Shown here: positions 10,912 through 62,614 of the stretch, in pieces
Numbering within the stretch: the first letter of the stretch is position 1
How the letters are laid out: every line of letters begins with the position of its first letter
NCBI RefSeq assembly: GCF_008831155.1
Contig: NZ_WBKB01000001.1
Span: 124,001-188,000, forward strand
Length of the DNA stretch: 64,000 nt
Reading direction: 5' to 3'
DNA from: Gulosibacter chungangensis
GTDB lineage: Bacteria > Actinomycetota > Actinomycetes > Actinomycetales > Microbacteriaceae
Notes under the pieces: generated by a model
Database searches by the model: none
What the model was told of the DNA's origin: nothing
What the model saw: the letters and a program-made list of their open reading frames with translations, nothing else
Position numbers and translations under genes: made by a program

Positions 10912-10913
10912 AG

Positions 10914-11010
10914 CTCCCTGAGTAGGCGAAGCTGTATCGAAGGCGCTCCCTGAGTAGGCGAAGCCGTATCGAAGGCGCTCCCTGAGTAGGCGAAGCCGTA
11001 TCGAAGGGCG
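10914..11010 (+). repeat. Three tandem copies of a 32-bp repeat (GAGTAGGCGAAGCCGTATCGA family)
   Basis: Units 10914–10945, 10946–10977 and 10978–11010 are nearly identical; unit 1 has one substitution and unit 3 one extra G. A partial inverted copy (CTACTCAGTGAG) follows immediately, so the array can fold and may end transcription of the two convergent genes that meet here. Related copies in opposite orientation lie at 62495–62614 and near 25746. Confidence 0.9.
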
Positions 11011-13922: not shown

Positions 13923-15053
13923 ATGTCTTCCCATTCTGAGCAGCCCTCCGCCGAGCACCTGGATCGCCAGGCTCGGCACGTGCGCCTGCTCGGTTATGGA
14001 CAGCCTGGGGTATACCGCGCACGGACAGCAAAGGTCACAGTGGTCGGTGCGGGAGGGCTCGGTTGCCCCGCGCTGCAGGTGCTCGCCGCATCCGACGTCG
14101 GTGAGCTGACAATCATCGATGACGATGTCGTGGAGCGCTCGAATCTCGCGCGGCAGACGCTCTTCCGGGAGACCGATATTGGCCGTCCCAAGGTCGTAGC
14201 CGCGATGGATGCGCTGAGCAGGTTGCGACCGGAGGTCACGGTTCTCCCCCGCCAAGTTCGGCTCGATGCGGGTAATAGTGAGGAGCTGTTGGCCTGGGCA
14301 GATGTCGTGATTGACACGACCGACCACTGGCCCACTCGTTTTGCCGTGGCAGATGCGTGTCTGGCGCTCGGGGTGCCGCTCGTATGGGGCAGCGTTGTCT
14401 CTTGGGATGGCCTGCTCACGGTTTTCGCCCCGGGGTCGGGGAATCCAACGCTGGCGGATCTCGTGGATCGCGAGCAACAACTGCGAGCCGAAGCGCCTAA
14501 TTGCGCGACCGTGGGGGTATTCGCGCCGCTGGTCGCCGAAATTGGCAGCGCCATGGCGGGCGAGGCGCTGCGAATCGTGACGGGCTCGGGTTCCCCGCTC
14601 GTTGGGGTGGTGCGCTCCTGGAACGGCCGCACCGGCAGGGTGCGGGAGCTGCCGCTTGCGGCGCAGGCACGGGCCACCGAACAAGTGCCGACCGCGAACC
14701 CGAATCCAAACCCAAACCCAAACCCAAACCCAAACATCCGACCCGAGGAGCGCATCCTGGATGTCCGCCCCGCCGCGCATCCAGATCTCTCGATCAACCA
14801 CAAATACACGCACCTGCCGCTCGAGACCATTGCCGAGCACGTCGCGCAAGGCCGGATTGAGCTGCTGCCGCTCGACGAACCGCTCGTGATCGCCTGCGCC
14901 CAGGGCCCGCGCGCTCGCTATGCCGCCGAACTACTGGCCGAGGCCGGCGCCGAATCGGTGCGCACCCTACCGGGTGGTGTACCGGCGCTCACGGCACTAT
15001 TTGCGACGCCATCTTCCCAAGCACTACCCACCCACGCCGAGGAGCCCCGATGA
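13923..15053 (+). CDS. MoeB/MoeZ-like adenylyltransferase with C-terminal rhodanese-like domain
   Basis: E1-like enzyme that adenylates the C-terminal Gly-Gly of a sulfur carrier (here probably MoaD encoded nearby) for sulfur transfer in molybdopterin synthesis. The ThiF domain (about residues 10–245) has the nucleotide loop VVGAGGLGCPA, IDDDVVERSNLARQTLF and DTTDHWPTRF. The zinc-binding CxxC pairs typical of E. coli MoeB are not seen. A linker of alternating Asn-Pro (about residues 259–271) joins a rhodanese-like domain whose candidate catalytic Cys is in LVIACAQGPRARYAAELL. The start at 13923 gives MSSHSEQ. It overlaps moeA by 4 bp. MoeB, MoeZ and ThiF cannot be told apart by sequence alone, but context favours molybdenum cofactor. 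Confidence 0.87.
   Translation: MSSHSEQPSAEHLDRQARHVRLLGYGQPGVYRARTAKVTVVGAGGLGCPALQVLAASDVGELTIIDDDVVERSNLARQTLFRETDIGRPKVVAAMDALSRLRPEVTVLPRQVRLDAGNSEELLAWADVVIDTTDHWPTRFAVADACLALGVPLVWGSVVSWDGLLTVFAPGSGNPTLADLVDREQQLRAEAPNCATVGVFAPLVAEIGSAMAGEALRIVTGSGSPLVGVVRSWNGRTGRVRELPLAAQARATEQVPTANPNPNPNPNPNPNIRPEERILDVRPAAHPDLSINHKYTHLPLETIAEHVAQGRIELLPLDEPLVIACAQGPRARYAAELLAEAGAESVRTLPGGVPALTALFATPSSQALPTHAEEPR
14697..14735 (+). repeat. Hexanucleotide AACCCA repeat encoding an (Asn-Pro) linker
   Basis: Six Asn-Pro codon pairs plus a final Asn; the last four pairs are identical AACCCA units. The track sits exactly between the ThiF and rhodanese domains. Because the unit is 6 bp, changes in copy number would alter linker length without shifting the frame. 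Confidence 0.9.
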
Positions 15054-16836: not shown

Positions 16837-17117
16837 CGAGCGGCGCCCGAGGAATCCCCGATGGTCTGCGTGAGTGGGTCGAGTTTGCCGCACCGCAGCT
16901 TGGGGTAGACGCTGCTGAGGTCCCGCTGGATGCGCTGCTCGGCATGACTGGAATTGTCGCCCACGGTGTGGTGCGGCCGGCGGCTCCGGTGAGTGCGTAC
17001 ATCCTCGGCCTTGCGGTGGGGCGTGGCACAATCTCATCAAACGAGGCGGGCGACGCGCTCTTACGGAGTCTCGTGACACAGTGGAATGCGCAGAAAGATA
17101 GTGATTTGGATGCGTGA
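16833..17117 (+). CDS. DUF6457-like small protein in molybdenum cofactor operon
   Basis: A 94-residue acidic helical protein of unknown function. The sequence (WVEFAAPQLGVD, then VAHGVVRPAAPVSAYILGLA) resembles the DUF6457 domain, which in other actinobacteria occurs alone or fused to MobA-type guanylyltransferases; the match is from memory of the family. The ATG at 16833 overlaps the moaC stop by 4 bp. Its last codons and stop fall inside the first of three 13-bp repeats. The tight operon position between moaC and moaD suggests a role in cofactor maturation or nucleotide attachment, but this is inference; no MobA is present nearby. Confidence 0.65.
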   Translation: MTSGARGIPDGLREWVEFAAPQLGVDAAEVPLDALLGMTGIVAHGVVRPAAPVSAYILGLAVGRGTISSNEAGDALLRSLVTQWNAQKDSDLDA

Positions 17118-17139
17118 TTTGGATGCGTGATTTGGATGC
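17101..17139 (+). repeat. Three tandem 13-bp repeats at the DUF6457/moaD junction
   Basis: GTGATTTGGATGC occurs exactly three times (17101–17113, 17114–17126, 17127–17139) and a fourth unit begins GTGA. The first copy holds the DUF6457 C-terminus and part of its stop, and the third holds the moaD start codon. Each unit contains a GTG and an ATG, and 13 bp is not a multiple of three. Confidence 0.95.
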
Positions 17140-17369
17140 GTGAAGTCAGGTTGTTTGCGGCCGCGGCGGATGCAGCGGGCACTGAGTCGGTGGCGCTCGC
17201 GGCTGCCACTGTGGAGGAGCTTCGGGCTCGGCTTGTCGAGAAGTTTGGTGACGAGTTCTCGCGAGTGTTGGCACAGTGCTCGCTACTCGCGGACGGTGCC
17301 AAGGTCGCCTCTGGCCCGCTGCCACAAGGCGCCACGGTGGATGTATTGCCACCGTTCGCGGGCGGCTAG
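17136..17369 (+). CDS. moaD: Molybdopterin synthase sulfur-carrier subunit
   Basis: Small ubiquitin-like protein that carries the thiocarboxylate sulfur used by MoaE to form the dithiolene. With the ATG at 17136 it has 77 residues (MREVRLFAAAADAAG…) and ends in PPFAGG; the terminal Gly-Gly is required for adenylation and thiocarboxylation. A GTG at 17127 in the same frame would add three residues. It lies 18 bp after the DUF6457 stop, inside the 13-bp repeat array, with no clear ribosome site, so translation is probably coupled. The matching moaE is 3 kb away on the other strand, beyond the IS remnants. Confidence 0.88.
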   Translation: MREVRLFAAAADAAGTESVALAAATVEELRARLVEKFGDEFSRVLAQCSLLADGAKVASGPLPQGATVDVLPPFAGG

Positions 17370-50019: not shown

Positions 50020-51192
50020 CTATTTGCGGTGTTTGGGTTGGTAGTCCTTCGCGGGGTCGATCGTGAATTCCGCGATAATTTCGCCGCCGCGTCGGCTGAT
50101 GACCATCACGTTGGGGCCGTTTACCAGCGCGATCACGCGCGTACGGTTATGGGCCCGGCCAATGCCAAGGTGTCGGAGTTTGCCGGCGTAGCGAAGTGTC
50201 ATCACACCGGCGCCATCGATGGTGTCGTACCGCACTCGCCATTGCTGGTCCGTGGTATCGAGTCGGGGGAAGTCCTTGATGCCGCGATGGTAGACCTCGT
50301 GGGGTGTGGCACGGTTCAGCGCCCGATGGGGACGCTCGGTGTTGTAGACGGCTCGAAAGTCGTCTAACAGCAGCTGCAGGTCGGCGAGGGTGTGTGGGGC
50401 AGCCCGGGCGGCCAGCCAGCGTTTCAGGGTTTGGTGGAATCGTTCGATCTTGCCCTGGGTCGTGGGGTGGCCGGGACGCCCGTTTTTCTGCTCGATGGAC
50501 AGGTCTGCGAGTAATTGTTCGAAGGCGTTGGGTTGGAAGTTTTGGCCGTTCGCGCCGCGCGCGAGGCGGGTGGTGTAGACCATGCCGTTATCGGTCAGGG
50601 TCGCTGCGGGCAGGTCATACGTATCGGCGGCGGCAAGGAAGCTGTCGATCACGATCGGGCCGGTGACACGCTCGTGGGGGCTGGCGTGTAGCAGGAATCG
50701 GGCGTGGTCATCGAGCCAGGAGATGATCTCGATGTCGGTGCCGTCTGCGAGCTGCCAGTGGGTGAAGTCGGATTGCCACAGCCCGTTCGGGGCGTCGGCT
50801 TCGAACCGGTGCCAGCTTGATCGGGGACGTTTCTGGGGTTGTGGGGTGATGGCCTCGCCCGCGCGTAGGATTCGCCAGATCGTTGCTGGTGAGGGCCGGT
50901 GCTCGGGTGGGAGGCGGTCATGGATTGATTCCGCTCCGGCGTCGAGACCTTGGGCGACGAGGTGTTTACGTAGCTCCAGGATGCGGTCGCGGACTGGTTG
51001 CGGGGTGGCGTTGGGATTGTGGTGGGGTGCGCGTGAGCGGGGCTCGAGTCCTTCGAGGCCGTGGGTGTTGTAGCGCGAGAGCAGGGTACGGATCCAGCGG
51101 GTGGTGACGCTGAATTGGGTGGCGGCGTCGGTGATGCTCAGGCCGCCTTCGATGATGGCCAGGACGATGGCCCGGTTTTTGGAGTAGGTCAC
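50020..51192 (-). CDS. IS481-family transposase
   Basis: DDE transposase of the IS481 group, 390 residues from GTG 51192. N-terminal helix-turn-helix (AIIEGGLSITDAATQFSVTT and WIRTLLSRY), then the catalytic core: first Asp in GLWQSDFTHWQLADG, second in ATLTDNGMVYTTR, Glu in GKIERFHQTLKRWL. All three residues are present. The frame is open up to 51279, but that extension translates the right-end iterons, and family members usually start near the helix-turn-helix, so 51192 is preferred. No ribosome site is clear. The stop at 50020 lies about 130 bp from the left end. Confidence 0.9.
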   Translation of the reverse strand: MTYSKNRAIVLAIIEGGLSITDAATQFSVTTRWIRTLLSRYNTHGLEGLEPRSRAPHHNPNATPQPVRDRILELRKHLVAQGLDAGAESIHDRLPPEHRPSPATIWRILRAGEAITPQPQKRPRSSWHRFEADAPNGLWQSDFTHWQLADGTDIEIISWLDDHARFLLHASPHERVTGPIVIDSFLAAADTYDLPAATLTDNGMVYTTRLARGANGQNFQPNAFEQLLADLSIEQKNGRPGHPTTQGKIERFHQTLKRWLAARAAPHTLADLQLLLDDFRAVYNTERPHRALNRATPHEVYHRGIKDFPRLDTTDQQWRVRYDTIDGAGVMTLRYAGKLRHLGIGRAHNRTRVIALVNGPNVMVISRRGGEIIAEFTIDPAKDYQPKHRK

Positions 51193-51217
51193 GGGTGTTG
51201 AGGATGCCGTGTTTGGT

Positions 51218-51333
51218 GGAACGATGTCGTGCGACAGTGAACGGAATGGTGTCGTGACACATGGTGTGAACGATGTCATGCGACATGTAGGGAACGATGT
51301 CGTGCGACAGGGGTGAACGATGTCGTGAAACCA
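51218..51333 (-). repeat. Five iterons at the right IS end (~24-bp spacing)
   Basis: GGAACGATGTCGTGCGACA-like units start at 51218, 51243, 51267, 51291 and 51314, i.e. every 23–25 bp. The regular spacing puts them roughly on one DNA face after two turns and suggests cooperative transposase binding. They precede the transposase start and could also autoregulate it. Confidence 0.85.
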
Positions 51334-52020: not shown

Positions 52021-53631
52021 TTATTTATTGCGCAATCGCTCCGGCCAGATTCCCGACTTTCCAGGGTTCAGAATTCCATTGGGGTCCAGCGCATCTTTAA
52101 TGCGCTCGTGGGATCGACGTTGAATGTGGTTATTAAAGCTATAGGTTTCAGCAACTTGATCCGCAAGTACATTGTGCGCTCGATAGATTCCATACCCTTC
52201 TTCAGCACCAGCGCGAATAAGCTCACGCGTCATATCGAGCGTTTCTTTACGACTTGCTGGGTCTGCGGTGTCATACAGCGGCAAACAAATGTGGTGCATC
52301 TCACGCAGGCCAATAATGAATTGCGCAAGATAGTCGATGCCGTGGTCGTCGCTGATTCGCTTCGTATCTTCATATTGCTTCGCGGCGTCCTCACCACTGG
52401 GCGCTGACACCGGGGCGTAGAAGAAGTGGCCAGCGTTCGGGAACCAGTCGAATACCGCGGCGGAGTGACGGTTCGGGACACCGGTGTTCAGTTCATGACG
52501 GGCGTTCAGCAGCTCGCTCGCACGATCACCCTCGCGAAGTGGGAGCGTCTCATTCGTCTCGAACCGCGCGCCGGGGATCTGCAAATAGGCGTCACGGATC
52601 ATTTCGATGTACTTGTCGATCTGCCAGCGAGGACCGTAGCAGGTGCCATACACGATCCAGTGCCCGATACCGAGTTCATCCACCATGCGCTGCTTCGCTT
52701 CATCAGTCAGCGGGCCGGGCTCGGTCTGCCACTCTTCACGCTTCGACACGCATGCGGCATCGAAGGTAACGTTTCGCACGATCGGTGCCGCCTGAAGCGG
52801 TGCCATGCCGATCCGCAGCGGCAGCGTGGTCTCCATGATCGCCGGGAGATCGTCTTCGTTCTCGAAGTAGATCGCGAAGCTCAGCATCTCGGGAGGTGTC
52901 GGCATGAGCTGCATCCCCATGCGGGTGCAGATACCGAAGTTCGACTGCTCGAACAGCCCTTCAATCGATGGCCCCAACTGGCCCGGGTAGAGATGCCAAG
53001 CTTCCGAGCCGGGTAGCCCGCCCATACCGGTCCGCAGCACTTCCCCGTCAGCCAGGACTACCTCCATCCCGCACCGCCACATCGAGTGGTCGGCATAGGG
53101 GGTGTAGCCCACACCATGCTCCATGGTGTTGCCCATGACGCTGCCCCAGTCGAGTTCGGCGGGGTCAATCATGAGTTTGGCACCCGAGTCTCGAACCGCT
53201 TCATACAGGGTCTTGTAGTCCACCCCCGGCTCGACAACGGCATAGGCGAGCTTCTCGTTGATTTCGAGCACACGGTTCATACGCTTACCCAAGTGGAGCA
53301 GGACCGTCCCCGTGAGCATGGGTGATGAGCCACCGTATCCGAGGTTCCGGCCGCCGGAGAACGCGTGCAGCGGGATGCCATATTTATTGGCAATACGAAC
53401 AATCACCTGAACGTCTTCCGTGCTGCCCGGCCAGATAACCGCACTGCCCTTGAATTCATCACCGTCGGTGACGGGGAATTTATCATCATATTCGCTGACG
53501 GTGGCTTCATCTACGCGCACGTATTCGCTGCCGATAGTTTCACTAAACTCGCTTATCGCATTTGCGAACTGCTCGGCACTAACCCCATCCGGGAGCGTGC
53601 GAAAATTCATTTGATCGATAGTTTGTGACAT
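52021..53631 (-). CDS. VAO-family phenol oxidase (eugenol/vanillyl-alcohol oxidase-like)
   Basis: FAD-dependent oxidase/dehydrogenase of 4-substituted phenols, 536 residues, close in pattern to Rhodococcus jostii eugenol oxidase (526). FAD domain: WPGSTEDVQVIVRIANKYGI near 68 and FSGGRNLGYGGSSP near 95; substrate domain: NTMEHGVGYTPYADHSMWRC near 171. The covalent-flavin His is kept (WFPNAGHFFYAPVS near 396), as are the phenolate-binding Tyr-Arg pair (GYGIYRAHNVL near 485) and QFIIGLREMHHICLPLYDTA. It could oxidise vanillyl alcohol, 4-alkylphenols or allylphenols to aldehyde, vinyl or alcohol products; the exact substrate is open. A CGAAA-containing half-site resembling the AraC operator lies upstream. 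Last gene of the aromatic cassette. Confidence 0.9.
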   Translation of the reverse strand: MSQTIDQMNFRTLPDGVSAEQFANAISEFSETIGSEYVRVDEATVSEYDDKFPVTDGDEFKGSAVIWPGSTEDVQVIVRIANKYGIPLHAFSGGRNLGYGGSSPMLTGTVLLHLGKRMNRVLEINEKLAYAVVEPGVDYKTLYEAVRDSGAKLMIDPAELDWGSVMGNTMEHGVGYTPYADHSMWRCGMEVVLADGEVLRTGMGGLPGSEAWHLYPGQLGPSIEGLFEQSNFGICTRMGMQLMPTPPEMLSFAIYFENEDDLPAIMETTLPLRIGMAPLQAAPIVRNVTFDAACVSKREEWQTEPGPLTDEAKQRMVDELGIGHWIVYGTCYGPRWQIDKYIEMIRDAYLQIPGARFETNETLPLREGDRASELLNARHELNTGVPNRHSAAVFDWFPNAGHFFYAPVSAPSGEDAAKQYEDTKRISDDHGIDYLAQFIIGLREMHHICLPLYDTADPASRKETLDMTRELIRAGAEEGYGIYRAHNVLADQVAETYSFNNHIQRRSHERIKDALDPNGILNPGKSGIWPERLRNK

Positions 53632-53735
53632 ATCTATACAACTCCTTTGTTGCTTAATTTCAATTGACCACTATTGGCGCCGATAACGCTACGCAAGAAT
53701 GCGCCCTCGCGAGTGCTATTTCGTAAACCGGCTAG

Positions 53736-54719
53736 TCAGTGGTTAAGCGTGTCCGAAGGACGTTCGCCAAACTCGCGTGCATATTGCGCCGCGAAGCGCC
53801 CCAAATGGCTAAACCCATACCGTCGTGCAATATCCGCTATCTGCACGCTGCCAGATTCCGCGTGTTGCAGCACCTCACGCACCTTTGAAAGCCTCAGCGT
53901 GAGTTGATATTGCATTGGACTCTGCCCTATCGAGTCCCGAAATGCGTTCTGCAGCGTCCGCCCGCTGACCCCGGACACCGCGGCGAGTGTTTCTAGCGAG
54001 ATCGGGGCACCTTCTGAAACATGAATCACGGTCTTTGCACGTTCGAAGACGCTCAGCTCGTCGGCAGCGAGCACGGGGGCGATTTGGGCAGGATGCGTGG
54101 AGCGCAAGAACCATTCTATGATGGTCTTCCCCAAATAATCAGCGAGTGCATCGTTGAGCCCACCGGGCTGCGCTGTCCCGTTGAATACTCGTTGCACCAA
54201 CTTGAACCACACCAGGCCAGCACCATGGCTCACATCGATGGTTGTCCCGAGTTCAACGGGCGACGTAAGCGGCCCACCAAACACTTGCTGCGCAATTTCT
54301 TCAACTGTCCGCCGCCGCATCTTGATCGCCAAGATGATGGTGGGCCGCTCGAATCCGCTGAATTCGGTTGGCACATCCGGTCCATACACAGCGGCACGAA
54401 ACACATTCGCCTCGACTCTGGTATCCCCAACGAGTGTGCGAAACGCTCCCGTCAGTGCAACGTTCACGTGGTACCAGTTCTCATAGGGTTCGGTATCAAC
54501 GCGCACGCCGTGTGCGTAGTGGAATGTACCGATCGAAACTGGACCGACTGTGGCCGAGGTCGCCGCAAAGACGAAGTCCGCTTCCCGAGTCATGGGATGC
54601 ACAATGTGCGGATGAAACAGTCGGTTTCCGATCAGTTCTGCGTCATCCACCGACCCGGTGCGGTGGATTTCTCGCATCTGCAAGATCTCCCCGTCCGGTT
54701 CAAGTGCTCGAGAATTCAT
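53736..54719 (-). CDS. AraC/XylS-family transcriptional activator
   Basis: A 327-residue regulator with an N-terminal AraC-binding-like (XylS/FeaR type) effector domain and a C-terminal double helix-turn-helix from about residue 222: ISLETLAAVSGVSGRTLQNA, then FRDSIGQSPMQYQLTLRLSK and IADIARRYGFSHLGRFAAQY. It lies between the oxidase and oxygenase operons on the same strand. XylS-type activators bind direct repeats spaced 21 bp; such a pair occurs at 57019–57060 before the oxygenase operon, making this the likely target. Effector probably an aromatic compound; inferred. Confidence 0.9.
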   Translation of the reverse strand: MNSRALEPDGEILQMREIHRTGSVDDAELIGNRLFHPHIVHPMTREADFVFAATSATVGPVSIGTFHYAHGVRVDTEPYENWYHVNVALTGAFRTLVGDTRVEANVFRAAVYGPDVPTEFSGFERPTIILAIKMRRRTVEEIAQQVFGGPLTSPVELGTTIDVSHGAGLVWFKLVQRVFNGTAQPGGLNDALADYLGKTIIEWFLRSTHPAQIAPVLAADELSVFERAKTVIHVSEGAPISLETLAAVSGVSGRTLQNAFRDSIGQSPMQYQLTLRLSKVREVLQHAESGSVQIADIARRYGFSHLGRFAAQYAREFGERPSDTLNH

Positions 54720-54827: not shown

Positions 54828-55322
54828 CTATGCACCCACCAGGTGGAAATTGCGGCGATCGTACACAAGTCCCGCTGCGTCATCCCGCATACGAATGCCT
54901 TCGACTTCCAAGAAGAGCACCGTGTGTGTGCCCTGTTCGACGCTATTCGCGACTCGACCCGCGAGCGCGACCCGCGCATCCCGCAATACCGGAACTCCGC
55001 TTAGGTCTTCCCAAAGGTCCCACTCAAAGCGTTCTGCCATCGGGACATTCGTCTGACCCGAGAAGTGTCGAGCGAGCTCTTCCTGCTCACCCGCAAGAAT
55101 GTTGAGCCCCATCCTCCCGTTCTTCACGAAGATGTCGCGCGTTGCGCTCTTGCGGTTTACGCACACGAGCACCGTGGGCGGTTCGTCCGTGACCGAGCAG
55201 GCTGCGGTGACAGTCAGCCCGAGTCGGCCGTGGTCGCCCGCCGTCGTGATGATGTTGACGGCGGATGTGCGGCTCGACATTGCCTGTCGAAATTCGCGTT
55301 GGAATGGTGTGAGTTCGTTCAT
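54828..55322 (-). CDS. NAD(P)H:flavin oxidoreductase (StyB/HpaC type)
   Basis: Small flavin reductase that would supply FADH2 to the oxygenase two genes upstream. The 164 residues show the flavin-reductase-like fold: FRQAMSSRTSAVNIITTAGD near 11, GLTVTAACSVTDEPPTVLVC near 35, the GMNILA-equivalent MGLNILAGEQEELARHFSGQ near 72, and the C-terminal GLVYDRRNFHLV motif that marks HpaC/StyB-like proteins. It overlaps the EthD-like gene by 4 bp. Operon position with a StyA-like protein supports the StyB role. Confidence 0.9.
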   Translation of the reverse strand: MNELTPFQREFRQAMSSRTSAVNIITTAGDHGRLGLTVTAACSVTDEPPTVLVCVNRKSATRDIFVKNGRMGLNILAGEQEELARHFSGQTNVPMAERFEWDLWEDLSGVPVLRDARVALAGRVANSVEQGTHTVLFLEVEGIRMRDDAAGLVYDRRNFHLVGA

Positions 55323-55639
55323 GATTTCGTTCCTTCCGTCACGGCGTAATCGAGAACGATTGCGCCACCGGTGGCGTAATTGGGTACGTCTTGCGCAACG
55401 GCTTGCCCTTCAGGCGAGCCCATTGCGTTCGCAAAGTCTTCTGCCGATGCAAACTCCGCTTCAAACACGGCGAAGTACGGGGCGGGTGTGCCATCCGCTT
55501 GCGGTGAGACATTAGTGGTGTACTGCCAGCGGATTAGTCCAGGCAATTTCGCGGCCAGCGGGAGGTGCGTTGCTTCGTAATACGCGGTGAACGCATCTCG
55601 GTCGGTGGGCTCGGGATAGAGCACGACAAGTTTGTGCAT
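55319..55639 (-). CDS. EthD-family dimeric alpha/beta-barrel protein
   Basis: A 106-residue EthD-like protein. Pattern: MHKLVVLYPEPTDRDAFTAY, then YEATHLPLAAKLPGLIRWQY near 19–40 and FAVFEAEFASAEDFANAMGS near 56–76, with the conserved His and Pro-Gly-Leu. The family ranges from EthD of the ether-degradation cluster to lactone isomerase-like proteins; EthD's own role is unresolved. Here it sits between oxygenase (18 bp gap) and reductase (4-bp overlap), so it is an integral part of the oxygenase operon and might act on the oxygenase product. Confidence 0.85.
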   Translation of the reverse strand: MHKLVVLYPEPTDRDAFTAYYEATHLPLAAKLPGLIRWQYTTNVSPQADGTPAPYFAVFEAEFASAEDFANAMGSPEGQAVAQDVPNYATGGAIVLDYAVTEGTKS

Positions 55640-55657: not shown

Positions 55658-56890
55658 TTATGCGTTGACCGTGGACTTGGTCGCTTCGATGGCGGCACGA
55701 ACTCGCTCGGTCGATCCGAGCAGATCCATCTGGCCGATCGGGTTATTGAAGTTTTCAGTGAAGCGGTCGGCGAGTTCGCGGTTGTGCACCATCGCGGAGA
55801 ACAGCTCTGGGATCTGCTCGGCGGGCGGGCCGATGATGGTGTTGATCCAATTGGTGGCCGCTTCCAGGCGTTCAGCGCGTCGGCGCGCGACCTTCTCCAT
55901 AAACCGGCGGTCGAAGACTTTGTCCTCGGCGATCGCATCCGCAATCACCTTCGCGGAGTACGCCGCAGAATTCGCTCCCTGGGCCTGCACCGGGTCCACC
56001 GTCATGTGGATGTCGCCCAGCGCGAGCAGGAATTTTCCGTTGGGTAGCTCAACAAAGTCCTGTCGCATTGCAGGTGGGAAGGCCCCCTGCAGGATGTCCT
56101 TCTCACCTTGGAGTCGGAACTCGTCTTCGTTGATACGCGCGTACATCGGCGGGTAGTACTCCCGCAGAATTTCCAGGGTCTTTTCGCGGTACGCAGCCGG
56201 GTCATCGGCGTACTTCTGATCGGTCAGCACTTCCTGCGGTCCACCGGGAACGCTTTCAAACAGCAGTGCCATCACCTTCCCAGAGAACGACCACATCGGA
56301 ATGGCGAGCAGTTCACCGACCCCCGGCACAACGTTCACACCGACACCATTAGGCTCAAGTCGTTCGACACCGTGCCAGAAACCGACAGCAAGCTTGCGTG
56401 CCGGGGCAGAGAACGGCGACAGTTCTGGTCGCTTCGGGAAGATCGCACTAATGTCACCCTTACCTGCCGAGACTACGACGAGGTCGTATTCGTCGGTGAG
56501 CGCATCCACATCTTCGCGGAACAGCGTGCCGTACACGAAACGGCCGCCCCGTTCTTCGAAGTCTTGCATGAGCTTTGGCAGCATGATTCGGTAGTCGACC
56601 ACTGCGGAAGGCTTCGTGAAGTCGCCAAAATACTCGCGGTCTTCACCCCAACCGTTGTAGTGGTAGTGACGAATGTACTCATAGTCTTCGCCGACCCAGT
56701 GGTTGATACCGAGTTCTTCTTCAATCGCTCGGGTGACGTGCATGTGCGCCACACTGTTCATGACGGGGCCATTTGCGACTTCCTCGCCGGTGCGGTTCGT
56801 GTAGATCGTGACGTCAAGGTCTTGCTTCCGCAGGTGCAGGCCGAGGTGGAGCCCTGCGATGCCGGAGCCGACAATTGCGATAGTGGTCAT
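55658..56890 (-). CDS. Styrene-monooxygenase-type FAD oxygenase (StyA-like)
   Basis: Group E flavin monooxygenase that epoxidises vinyl aromatics or oxidises indole using FADH2 from a separate reductase. The 410 residues begin with TTIAIVGSGIAGLHLGLHLR, continue with VMNSVAHMHVTRAIEEELGI near 43–62, IRHYHYNGWG near 73, KPSAVVDYRIMLPKLMQDFE near 92, and the second FAD site LALGDIHMTVDPVQAQGANS near 290. At positions aligned to StyA 46/48/50/73/76/96 it has N-V-H-Y-H-S, the residues I recall as marking styrene rather than indole monooxygenases. First gene of the operon, behind the 21-bp direct repeat. ATG 56890, AAGGAAG upstream. Confidence 0.9.
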   Translation of the reverse strand: MTTIAIVGSGIAGLHLGLHLRKQDLDVTIYTNRTGEEVANGPVMNSVAHMHVTRAIEEELGINHWVGEDYEYIRHYHYNGWGEDREYFGDFTKPSAVVDYRIMLPKLMQDFEERGGRFVYGTLFREDVDALTDEYDLVVVSAGKGDISAIFPKRPELSPFSAPARKLAVGFWHGVERLEPNGVGVNVVPGVGELLAIPMWSFSGKVMALLFESVPGGPQEVLTDQKYADDPAAYREKTLEILREYYPPMYARINEDEFRLQGEKDILQGAFPPAMRQDFVELPNGKFLLALGDIHMTVDPVQAQGANSAAYSAKVIADAIAEDKVFDRRFMEKVARRRAERLEAATNWINTIIGPPAEQIPELFSAMVHNRELADRFTENFNNPIGQMDLLGSTERVRAAIEATKSTVNA

Positions 56891-57290
56891 AAGTGACTTC
56901 CTTCGTTGAACACGAATTGCGAGCTGTTAGCTTCTTCGTCGGTAACTGATGCTCGTGAGCGGCTTTGCTCTCTCGTGGTGAAAACTAAGTTACGAGCGAA
57001 CGCAACGGCCAAATGTCGCTTTCGCAAAACGGATATTGACTTTCGCAAAACGGATACTGCACAGGTCTTGATCTGTCTCGGAGCCATCCCTACTGATAGA
57101 CTTGCAATTCTGTGCGGCCAATCCGAGCCGCCTGTCATTCGTAACGTCCCCCGCCCGCGATCTCATTGCATCGCGCAGGCGCGCTCTCATCAACAGTGTT
57201 TGTGCCTAATTCGCACCGCGGTTGCCGCAGGGATCAGCCATTCCAGGCTGCATGTTCGTTGCGTGCAATCCGAAAGGCACCCACACGTCT
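56891..57290. promoter_or_regulatory. Intergenic region upstream of the oxygenase operon and helicase
   Basis: 400 bp without a supported gene. It contains the tandem AraC-site candidate (57019–57060), a TAACTT −10-like box on the minus strand about 30 bp nearer the oxygenase, and the 5' leader of the DEAD-box helicase. A helicase-frame extension to 57222 is possible but has no good ribosome site. Part nearest the oxygenase is lower in GC. Confidence 0.6.
57019..57060 (-). promoter_or_regulatory. Tandem 21-bp direct repeat, likely AraC/XylS operator
   Basis: CTTTCGCAAAACGGATA occurs at 57019–57035 and again at 57040–57056; the full 21-bp units match at 18 positions. The period is exactly 21 bp (two helical turns), the arrangement bound by XylS-type activators. 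The repeats lie about 130–170 bp upstream of the oxygenase ATG. Confidence 0.8.
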
Positions 57291-62494: not shown

Positions 62495-62614
62495 TCCCCG
62501 AGTAGGAGCGAAGCGACGTATCGAGGCGCGTCCGGAGAATCACCGCACCTCGATACGCCTACGGCTACTCGGTGAACGGAAGAGATACGCCTACGGCTAC
62601 TCGGTGAACGGAAG
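62495..62614 (-). repeat. GATACGCCTACGGCTACTCGG repeats, two direct plus one inverted copy
   Basis: Two 31-bp identical units (62552–62582 and 62584–62614) have a 32-bp period, the same period as the array at 10914. An inverted relative (GAGTAGGAGCGAAGCGACGT, about 62501–62525) can pair with the first unit. The array follows the asd stop and lies before the mqo promoter, so it may act as an asd terminator. Confidence 0.9.

Follow-up and report, generated by a model that had tools for sequence, protein, structure and literature searches.

The window, the whole stretch of 64,000 nucleotides of the Gulosibacter chungangensis genome that was analysed, carries a cluster of five genes on the minus strand. 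In the direction of transcription, these encode a StyA-like two-component flavoprotein monooxygenase with a Smoa_sbd domain (the oxygenase, 55658–56890), an EthD-family protein, the conserved second gene (55319–55639), an HpaC/StyB-like flavin reductase (54828–55322), an AraC/XylS-family regulator with AraC_binding_2 and two-HTH domains (53736–54719) and a VAO-family oxidase (52021–53631). The regulator gene lies downstream of the reductase gene on the same strand, and its product is the probable binder of the boxes described here.

Upstream of the oxygenase gene, a repeat unit (CTTTCGCAAAACGGATA; TATCCGTTTTGCGAAAG in the operon sense, on the minus strand) is present as two exact copies at 57019–57035 and 57040–57056, 21 bp from start to start, as the preliminary description had reported, and the regulator gene starts 2.3 kb away, also as reported there. 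Extended to 20 bases, the two copies share 19. Each contains a candidate operator box (TATCCGTTTTGCGAA, minus strand), proximal at 57021–57035 and distal at 57042–57056, located 28 and 49 bp, respectively, before a TAACTT hexamer (56987–56992, minus strand) that is probably the -10 element of the oxygenase promoter. A second TANNNT is found 5 bases beyond TAACTT, 33 bp after the box, and no sigma-70 pair reached the scan threshold in 56880–57290. The proposed -10 is overlapped by a weak stem resembling a terminator (GTTGCGTTCGCTCGTAAC followed by TTAGTTTTCA, minus strand, 56989–57006); the same scan found 2 such sites against 0.6 expected.

The VAO gene is preceded by a single candidate box (TAGCCGGTTTACGAA, of the form TAGCC-N5-ACGAA; 53720–53734, minus strand), directly after the regulator gene, with a probable -10 hexamer, TAGCGT (53686–53691, minus strand), 28 bp after it. 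The weaker match before this gene in the preliminary description, 11 of 14 positions by eye between CCGGTTTACGAAAT and CCGTTTTGCGAAAG, was recovered inside this box. A weaker second box match, with a score of 11.7, lies at the start of the VAO gene.

In the 3.24-Mb assembly the exact repeat unit is present only at these two sites. Allowing up to 3 mismatches gave 7 matches in the assembly, the 2 exact copies and 5 with 3 mismatches, against 6 for the backward control; in the window this search returned only the 2 copies, against 0.15 expected, and 2 were reached in 1 of 100 shuffles. Exact tandem 17-mers are not unusual in the window: at periods of 5–60 there are 11 runs of 17 or more, several of them belonging to shared arrays, and 5 dinucleotide shuffles gave none. 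The repeat alone is therefore weak evidence and we placed the weight on conservation in relatives. Other repeats in the window include direct repeats with a 32-bp period at 10913–11007 and 62552–62614 (runs of 20, 42 and 31 matching bases), a 13-bp tandem repeat, GTGATTTGGATGC, at 17101–17143 (run of 30) and a 6-bp tandem repeat, CCAAAC, at 14706–14735 (run of 24).

The degenerate class of the box occurs 4 times in the genome, with 3 occurrences in this cluster; the fourth lies inside long open frames, without a -10 at 24–34 bp. A loose form gave 4 real matches in the genome versus 5 in the backward control, and the box with up to 1 mismatch gave 13 matches in the window versus 5.6 expected. 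No wider regulon was found in this genome.

From its 8th codon onwards, the oxidase matches the proteins of PDB entries 7pbg/7pbi with 100% identity over 529 aa. It has E152, L153 and the covalent-FAD residue H395, the residues printed for the G. chungangensis 4-ethylphenol oxidase in Table 1 of PMC7617285. From the sequence and these residues, 7pbg is identifiable as the Gulosibacter 4-ethylphenol oxidase.

The oxygenase scores 473.6 bits against the StyA styrene monooxygenase equivalog NF045732, below the curated cut-off of 550, and is thus a StyA relative rather than the equivalog. It shares 42–47% identity with its nine best plasmid-borne matches, several of which are annotated StyA, and only 30–32% with Acinetobacter and Burkholderia proteins. 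The latter we take to be iif-type indole oxygenases, a reading of our own, as no product is printed for them. An indole (iif) cluster was the first idea from the gene set and was rejected: the oxygenase identities, nearer to the StyA-annotated matches, and the link to a 4-ethylphenol oxidase led us to prefer a phenol route, although indole may be a substrate of the oxygenase. The oxidase presumably produces 4-vinylphenols, which the StyA-like enzyme could epoxidize, and the gene set suggests a route from 4-ethylphenol through 4-vinylphenol to the epoxide under one regulator, with a 4-alkyl- or 4-vinylphenol probably acting as the inducer. The cluster would thereby tie a solved enzyme, the 4-ethylphenol oxidase, to its likely partner monooxygenase, pathway and regulator.

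An IS481-family transposase gene (50020–51279) sits beside the cluster. The oxygenase is 66–68% identical to proteins of Leucobacter and of another family, against 59–60% for its own genus, and the G+C content is 0.56–0.60 over 52–57 kb compared with 0.59–0.67 around it, ranges that overlap. The transposase neighbour, oxygenase kinship and G+C content raise the possibility that the cluster may have been acquired.

The regulator comprises an N-terminal AraC_binding_2 sensing domain (PF14525, E 9.8e-20) and a C-terminal domain with two helix-turn-helix motifs (HTH_18, PF12833, E 1.6e-18; HTH_AraC above its cut-off). The DNA-binding domain shares 42% identity with XylS over 101 residues, the region of the second helix-turn-helix (FxHLGRFAxxYxxxFGExPSDTL) being especially alike. 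In an eight-protein alignment that includes XylS, H293, G295, R296 and F297 (XylS numbering) are invariant.

We compared the upstream regions (at most 300 bp each) of 84 oxygenase genes, consisting of the best 80 of 103 loci together with the window and loci L019, L020 and L022. The box was found in 6 of the 7 regions with an AraC match (E 1e-5, a cut-off that misses more distant regulators) versus 0 of the 77 without one, seven loci having less than 2.5 kb downstream, such that a regulator may lie beyond the stretch. The seventh AraC-bearing region, L022, has its box before VAO instead. The opposite strand of the 84 regions contained no box. The L103 region comprises only 2 upstream bases, and the L026 annotation begins at query residue 26, which shifts its upstream region. 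The strict box arose by chance in at most 0.15% of shuffles (7 single-region sets, 2000 each, that strand).

A single box, TATCC-N5-RCGAA, is present in ten other genomes, before the oxygenase in nine and before VAO in two, one genome having both. In Microbacteriaceae it precedes the oxygenase in L019, L020, L021/L025, L024 and L026, and VAO in L024 and in L022, where the first half reads GATCC. Leucobacter chromiiresistens NS354 (L024) matches the window in its five genes and their order, with a box before oxygenase and VAO and weaker second box matches in its leader (scores of 9.6 and 9.3). Oxygenase, EthD, reductase and regulator make up the gene set of L020, L021/L025 and L026, while the L019 cluster has no reductase match. 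In L022 the genes run regulator, VAO, oxygenase, EthD, and the reductase match is only a distant one. Over the whole cluster loci, L019, L022 and L024 each gave one extra match to the loose box; the others gave none. Comparison with relatives, proposed as a check in the preliminary description, upholds the box but not its tandem arrangement: the relatives have one copy per gene, which means that a doubled box is not the rule.

The box-bearing relatives mostly have the closest oxygenases. L022, at 48% identity, has the regulator and a box before VAO; other oxygenases at 46–50% have neither regulator nor box. Oxygenase matches were obtained in 4 of 11 genus genomes (1e-100) and 6 of 299 family genomes (1e-60), own genome included in each, and in 1 of 10 genomes from the genus of G234 and 4 of 60 from the family of G749. 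One of the six from the own family, G018 (L023), yielded neither a regulator match nor a box over 16 kb. VAO matches were found in 3 of 398 family genomes (1e-150), own included, and in the own genome only among 394 class genomes (1e-200). The VAO box is present in all three genomes where VAO sits in the cluster, in keeping with the earlier suggestion that both promoters answer to one regulator, which would bind at each. A more distant VAO (G007, 58%) has no loose box in 4.6 kb, a stretch from which the cluster genes are absent.

The position of the box relative to the promoter is also conserved within the family. TANNNT follows the box in all nine Microbacteriaceae promoters, at 28 bp in six, 29 bp in two and 30 bp in one, and no other offset between 5 and 89 has the hexamer in more than two of the nine; this set includes three near-identical Gulosibacter sequences, and the motif was first spotted by eye in the promoters that also gave the nine-of-nine spacing. 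Leave-group-out scores at ±20 to 22 bp were negative in the eight promoters other than that of the window oxygenase, and the second copy is thus peculiar to the latter among the nine.

A regulator alignment search of 396 order genomes gave four with a match, own included, and hence three genomes of another family. All three carry oxygenase, EthD, reductase and regulator genes. Counting both strands over 16–16.5 kb, there is exactly one loose box per genome, located before the oxygenase; two of these boxes match the window box at 15 of 15 positions and the third at 14 of 15. A fourth genome from the other family, reached via the oxygenase (4 of 57 in that genus), has a 15/15 box and a regulator gene behind, cut by the locus end. 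The box was predicted out-of-sample in the other family and held in 4/4, such that box, AraC gene and oxygenase are found together in two families. By contrast, the 28–30 bp spacing, also predicted out-of-sample, failed in all four (0/4): their sole TANNNT between 5 and 74 bp lies at 50, 50, 50 and 51 bp. The four promoters share TTGTGT 18 bp before the hexamer, which may be a -35. The two spacing classes differ by 20–23 bp, approximately two helical turns, and with boxes at 28 and 49 bp the doubled form in the window holds both helix-equivalent positions. All four of these loci (L123–L126) also keep TTGTGTGC and GGTARATTC in the stretch that separates the box from the oxygenase start, with GTCGGACATCGACGTC conserved there too, closer to the start codon.

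The box is very likely the operator of the local AraC/XylS-type activator, common to the oxygenase and VAO promoters, and the comparison thus supports the AraC/XylS operator reading of the preliminary description. We propose with considerable confidence that the two 15–17 bp copies are sites for the AraC/XylS-type activator encoded behind the oxygenase genes, which would recruit RNA polymerase. Each site would offer a TATCC and an RCGAA half-site spaced by roughly one turn, fitting the two helix-turn-helix motifs of the regulator. From its site close to a promoter that has a -10-like hexamer but lacks a consensus -35, the activator would bring RNA polymerase to the oxygenase operon, which probably includes the regulator gene and would then generate positive feedback, and the single, less perfect box would place the same activator at the VAO gene. 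The proximal copy occupies the Microbacteriaceae position and the distal copy lies two helical turns upstream, as does the only copy of the other family, and both would present the activator on the same DNA face.

What the second copy contributes is less certain. Of the eleven genomes compared, only this one has the tandem, and the extra copy could be either redundant or additive in effect. There is a real, somewhat less than even, chance that the proximal box is the working operator and that the distal box arose by a recent tandem duplication of 21 bp and affects expression hardly or not at all, which would be compatible with our main reading of the box. The agreement between the copies extends to spacer bases that vary between relatives, and no position at ±20 to 22 bp scored above zero in the other eight promoters. 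However, the distal position is, within 1–2 bp, that of the sole box in four other-family genomes, where a site plausibly works, and the 21-bp spacing holds the distal copy on the same face. A more speculative possibility, which we put forward tentatively, is that the reversed XylS-type box can function at two alternative positions separated by about two helical turns, that families keep one or the other, and that the window, with both, is a natural intermediate of operator relocation by tandem duplication. The promoters with the box near, far or at both positions provide a natural experiment on the distance of an AraC-type activator from RNA polymerase.

It is improbable that the boxes are bound by another regulator encoded elsewhere, instead of the AraC-type protein of the cluster. 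The regulators of the relatives are only 35–42% identical to that of the window, a point in favour of this alternative, but the box follows the AraC gene across the upstream regions and is present in 4/4 further genomes with the gene. In addition, both the region of the second recognition helix and the GGATA half-site are conserved between XylS and the window. That the repeat, which sits between two divergent genes, serves the DEAD-box helicase gene or another plus-strand feature can practically be dismissed, as the box accompanies oxygenase or VAO in relatives and not the helicase, for which 7 loci from 6 relatives (E 1e-10) gave no match on the other side, and L120–L122 gave none either.

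We compared the proposed operator of the cluster activator to known AraC-type systems. PMC5481539 describes two 15-bp direct repeats for XylS at Pm, 21 bp apart and of 4-6-5 structure. The Pm boxes are TGCAAGAAGCGGATA and TGCAAAAAATGGCTA, and on the plus strand the window box reads TTCGCAAAACGGATA, or TTCG-N6-GGATA. Both window copies therefore contain the GGNTA B half-site as GGATA, while the TGCA A half-site is replaced by TTCG. With XylS/Pm of the TOL plasmid pWW0 the window shares the 21-bp direct-repeat spacing, the GGNTA half and the HLGRFA region of the regulator. The XylS-type layout put forward in the preliminary description stands as to the 21-bp spacing, which is restricted to the window oxygenase promoter, with a single box before VAO and in relatives compared to two at Pm. 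It does not stand as to orientation: rather than running forward with the B half-site beside the -35, the TATCC (= GGATA) half faces away from the oxygenase gene, and the box would be reversed relative to its gene if GGATA corresponds to the XylS-type B half-site. The distance from box to -10 is 21 bp at Pm, for the hexamer that we presume to be its -10, versus 28 bp in the window.

To our knowledge, MarA-type proteins lack a sensing domain, whereas the window regulator carries AraC_binding_2. According to PMC12052159, MarA/SoxS/Rob class I promoters have a reverse box upstream of the -35 (-56 to -85) and class II promoters a forward box (-36 to -55). If the -10 hexamer spans -12 to -7, the distal window box (-76 to -62) falls inside the class I range with the reverse orientation as well, and the proximal box (-55 to -41) falls inside the class II range with only the orientation of class I. 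A further parallel is CphR of Rhodococcus sp. YH-5B, an actinobacterial AraC-type activator of a phenol-oxidising two-component monooxygenase. PMC6205950 gives two imperfect 15-bp repeats, TGCA-N6-GGNTA, lying forward at -35 to -69 with the A half upstream of B and the last sub-motif overlapping the -35 by two bases. A literature search found no paper on the operator described here, with subscription papers mostly outside its coverage and absence thus unproven. The oxygenase promoter represents a compact candidate for an alkylphenol-inducible promoter in actinobacteria.

Finally, two Leucobacter loci (L027 and L028), with oxygenases of 49–50% identity and no AraC match in the stretch, share a different sequence, TTGCGCTTTCACGCACGCGAGTTGTCTTTCCGGCAG, located some 154 to 118 bases before the oxygenase, which is perhaps the operator of another regulator.
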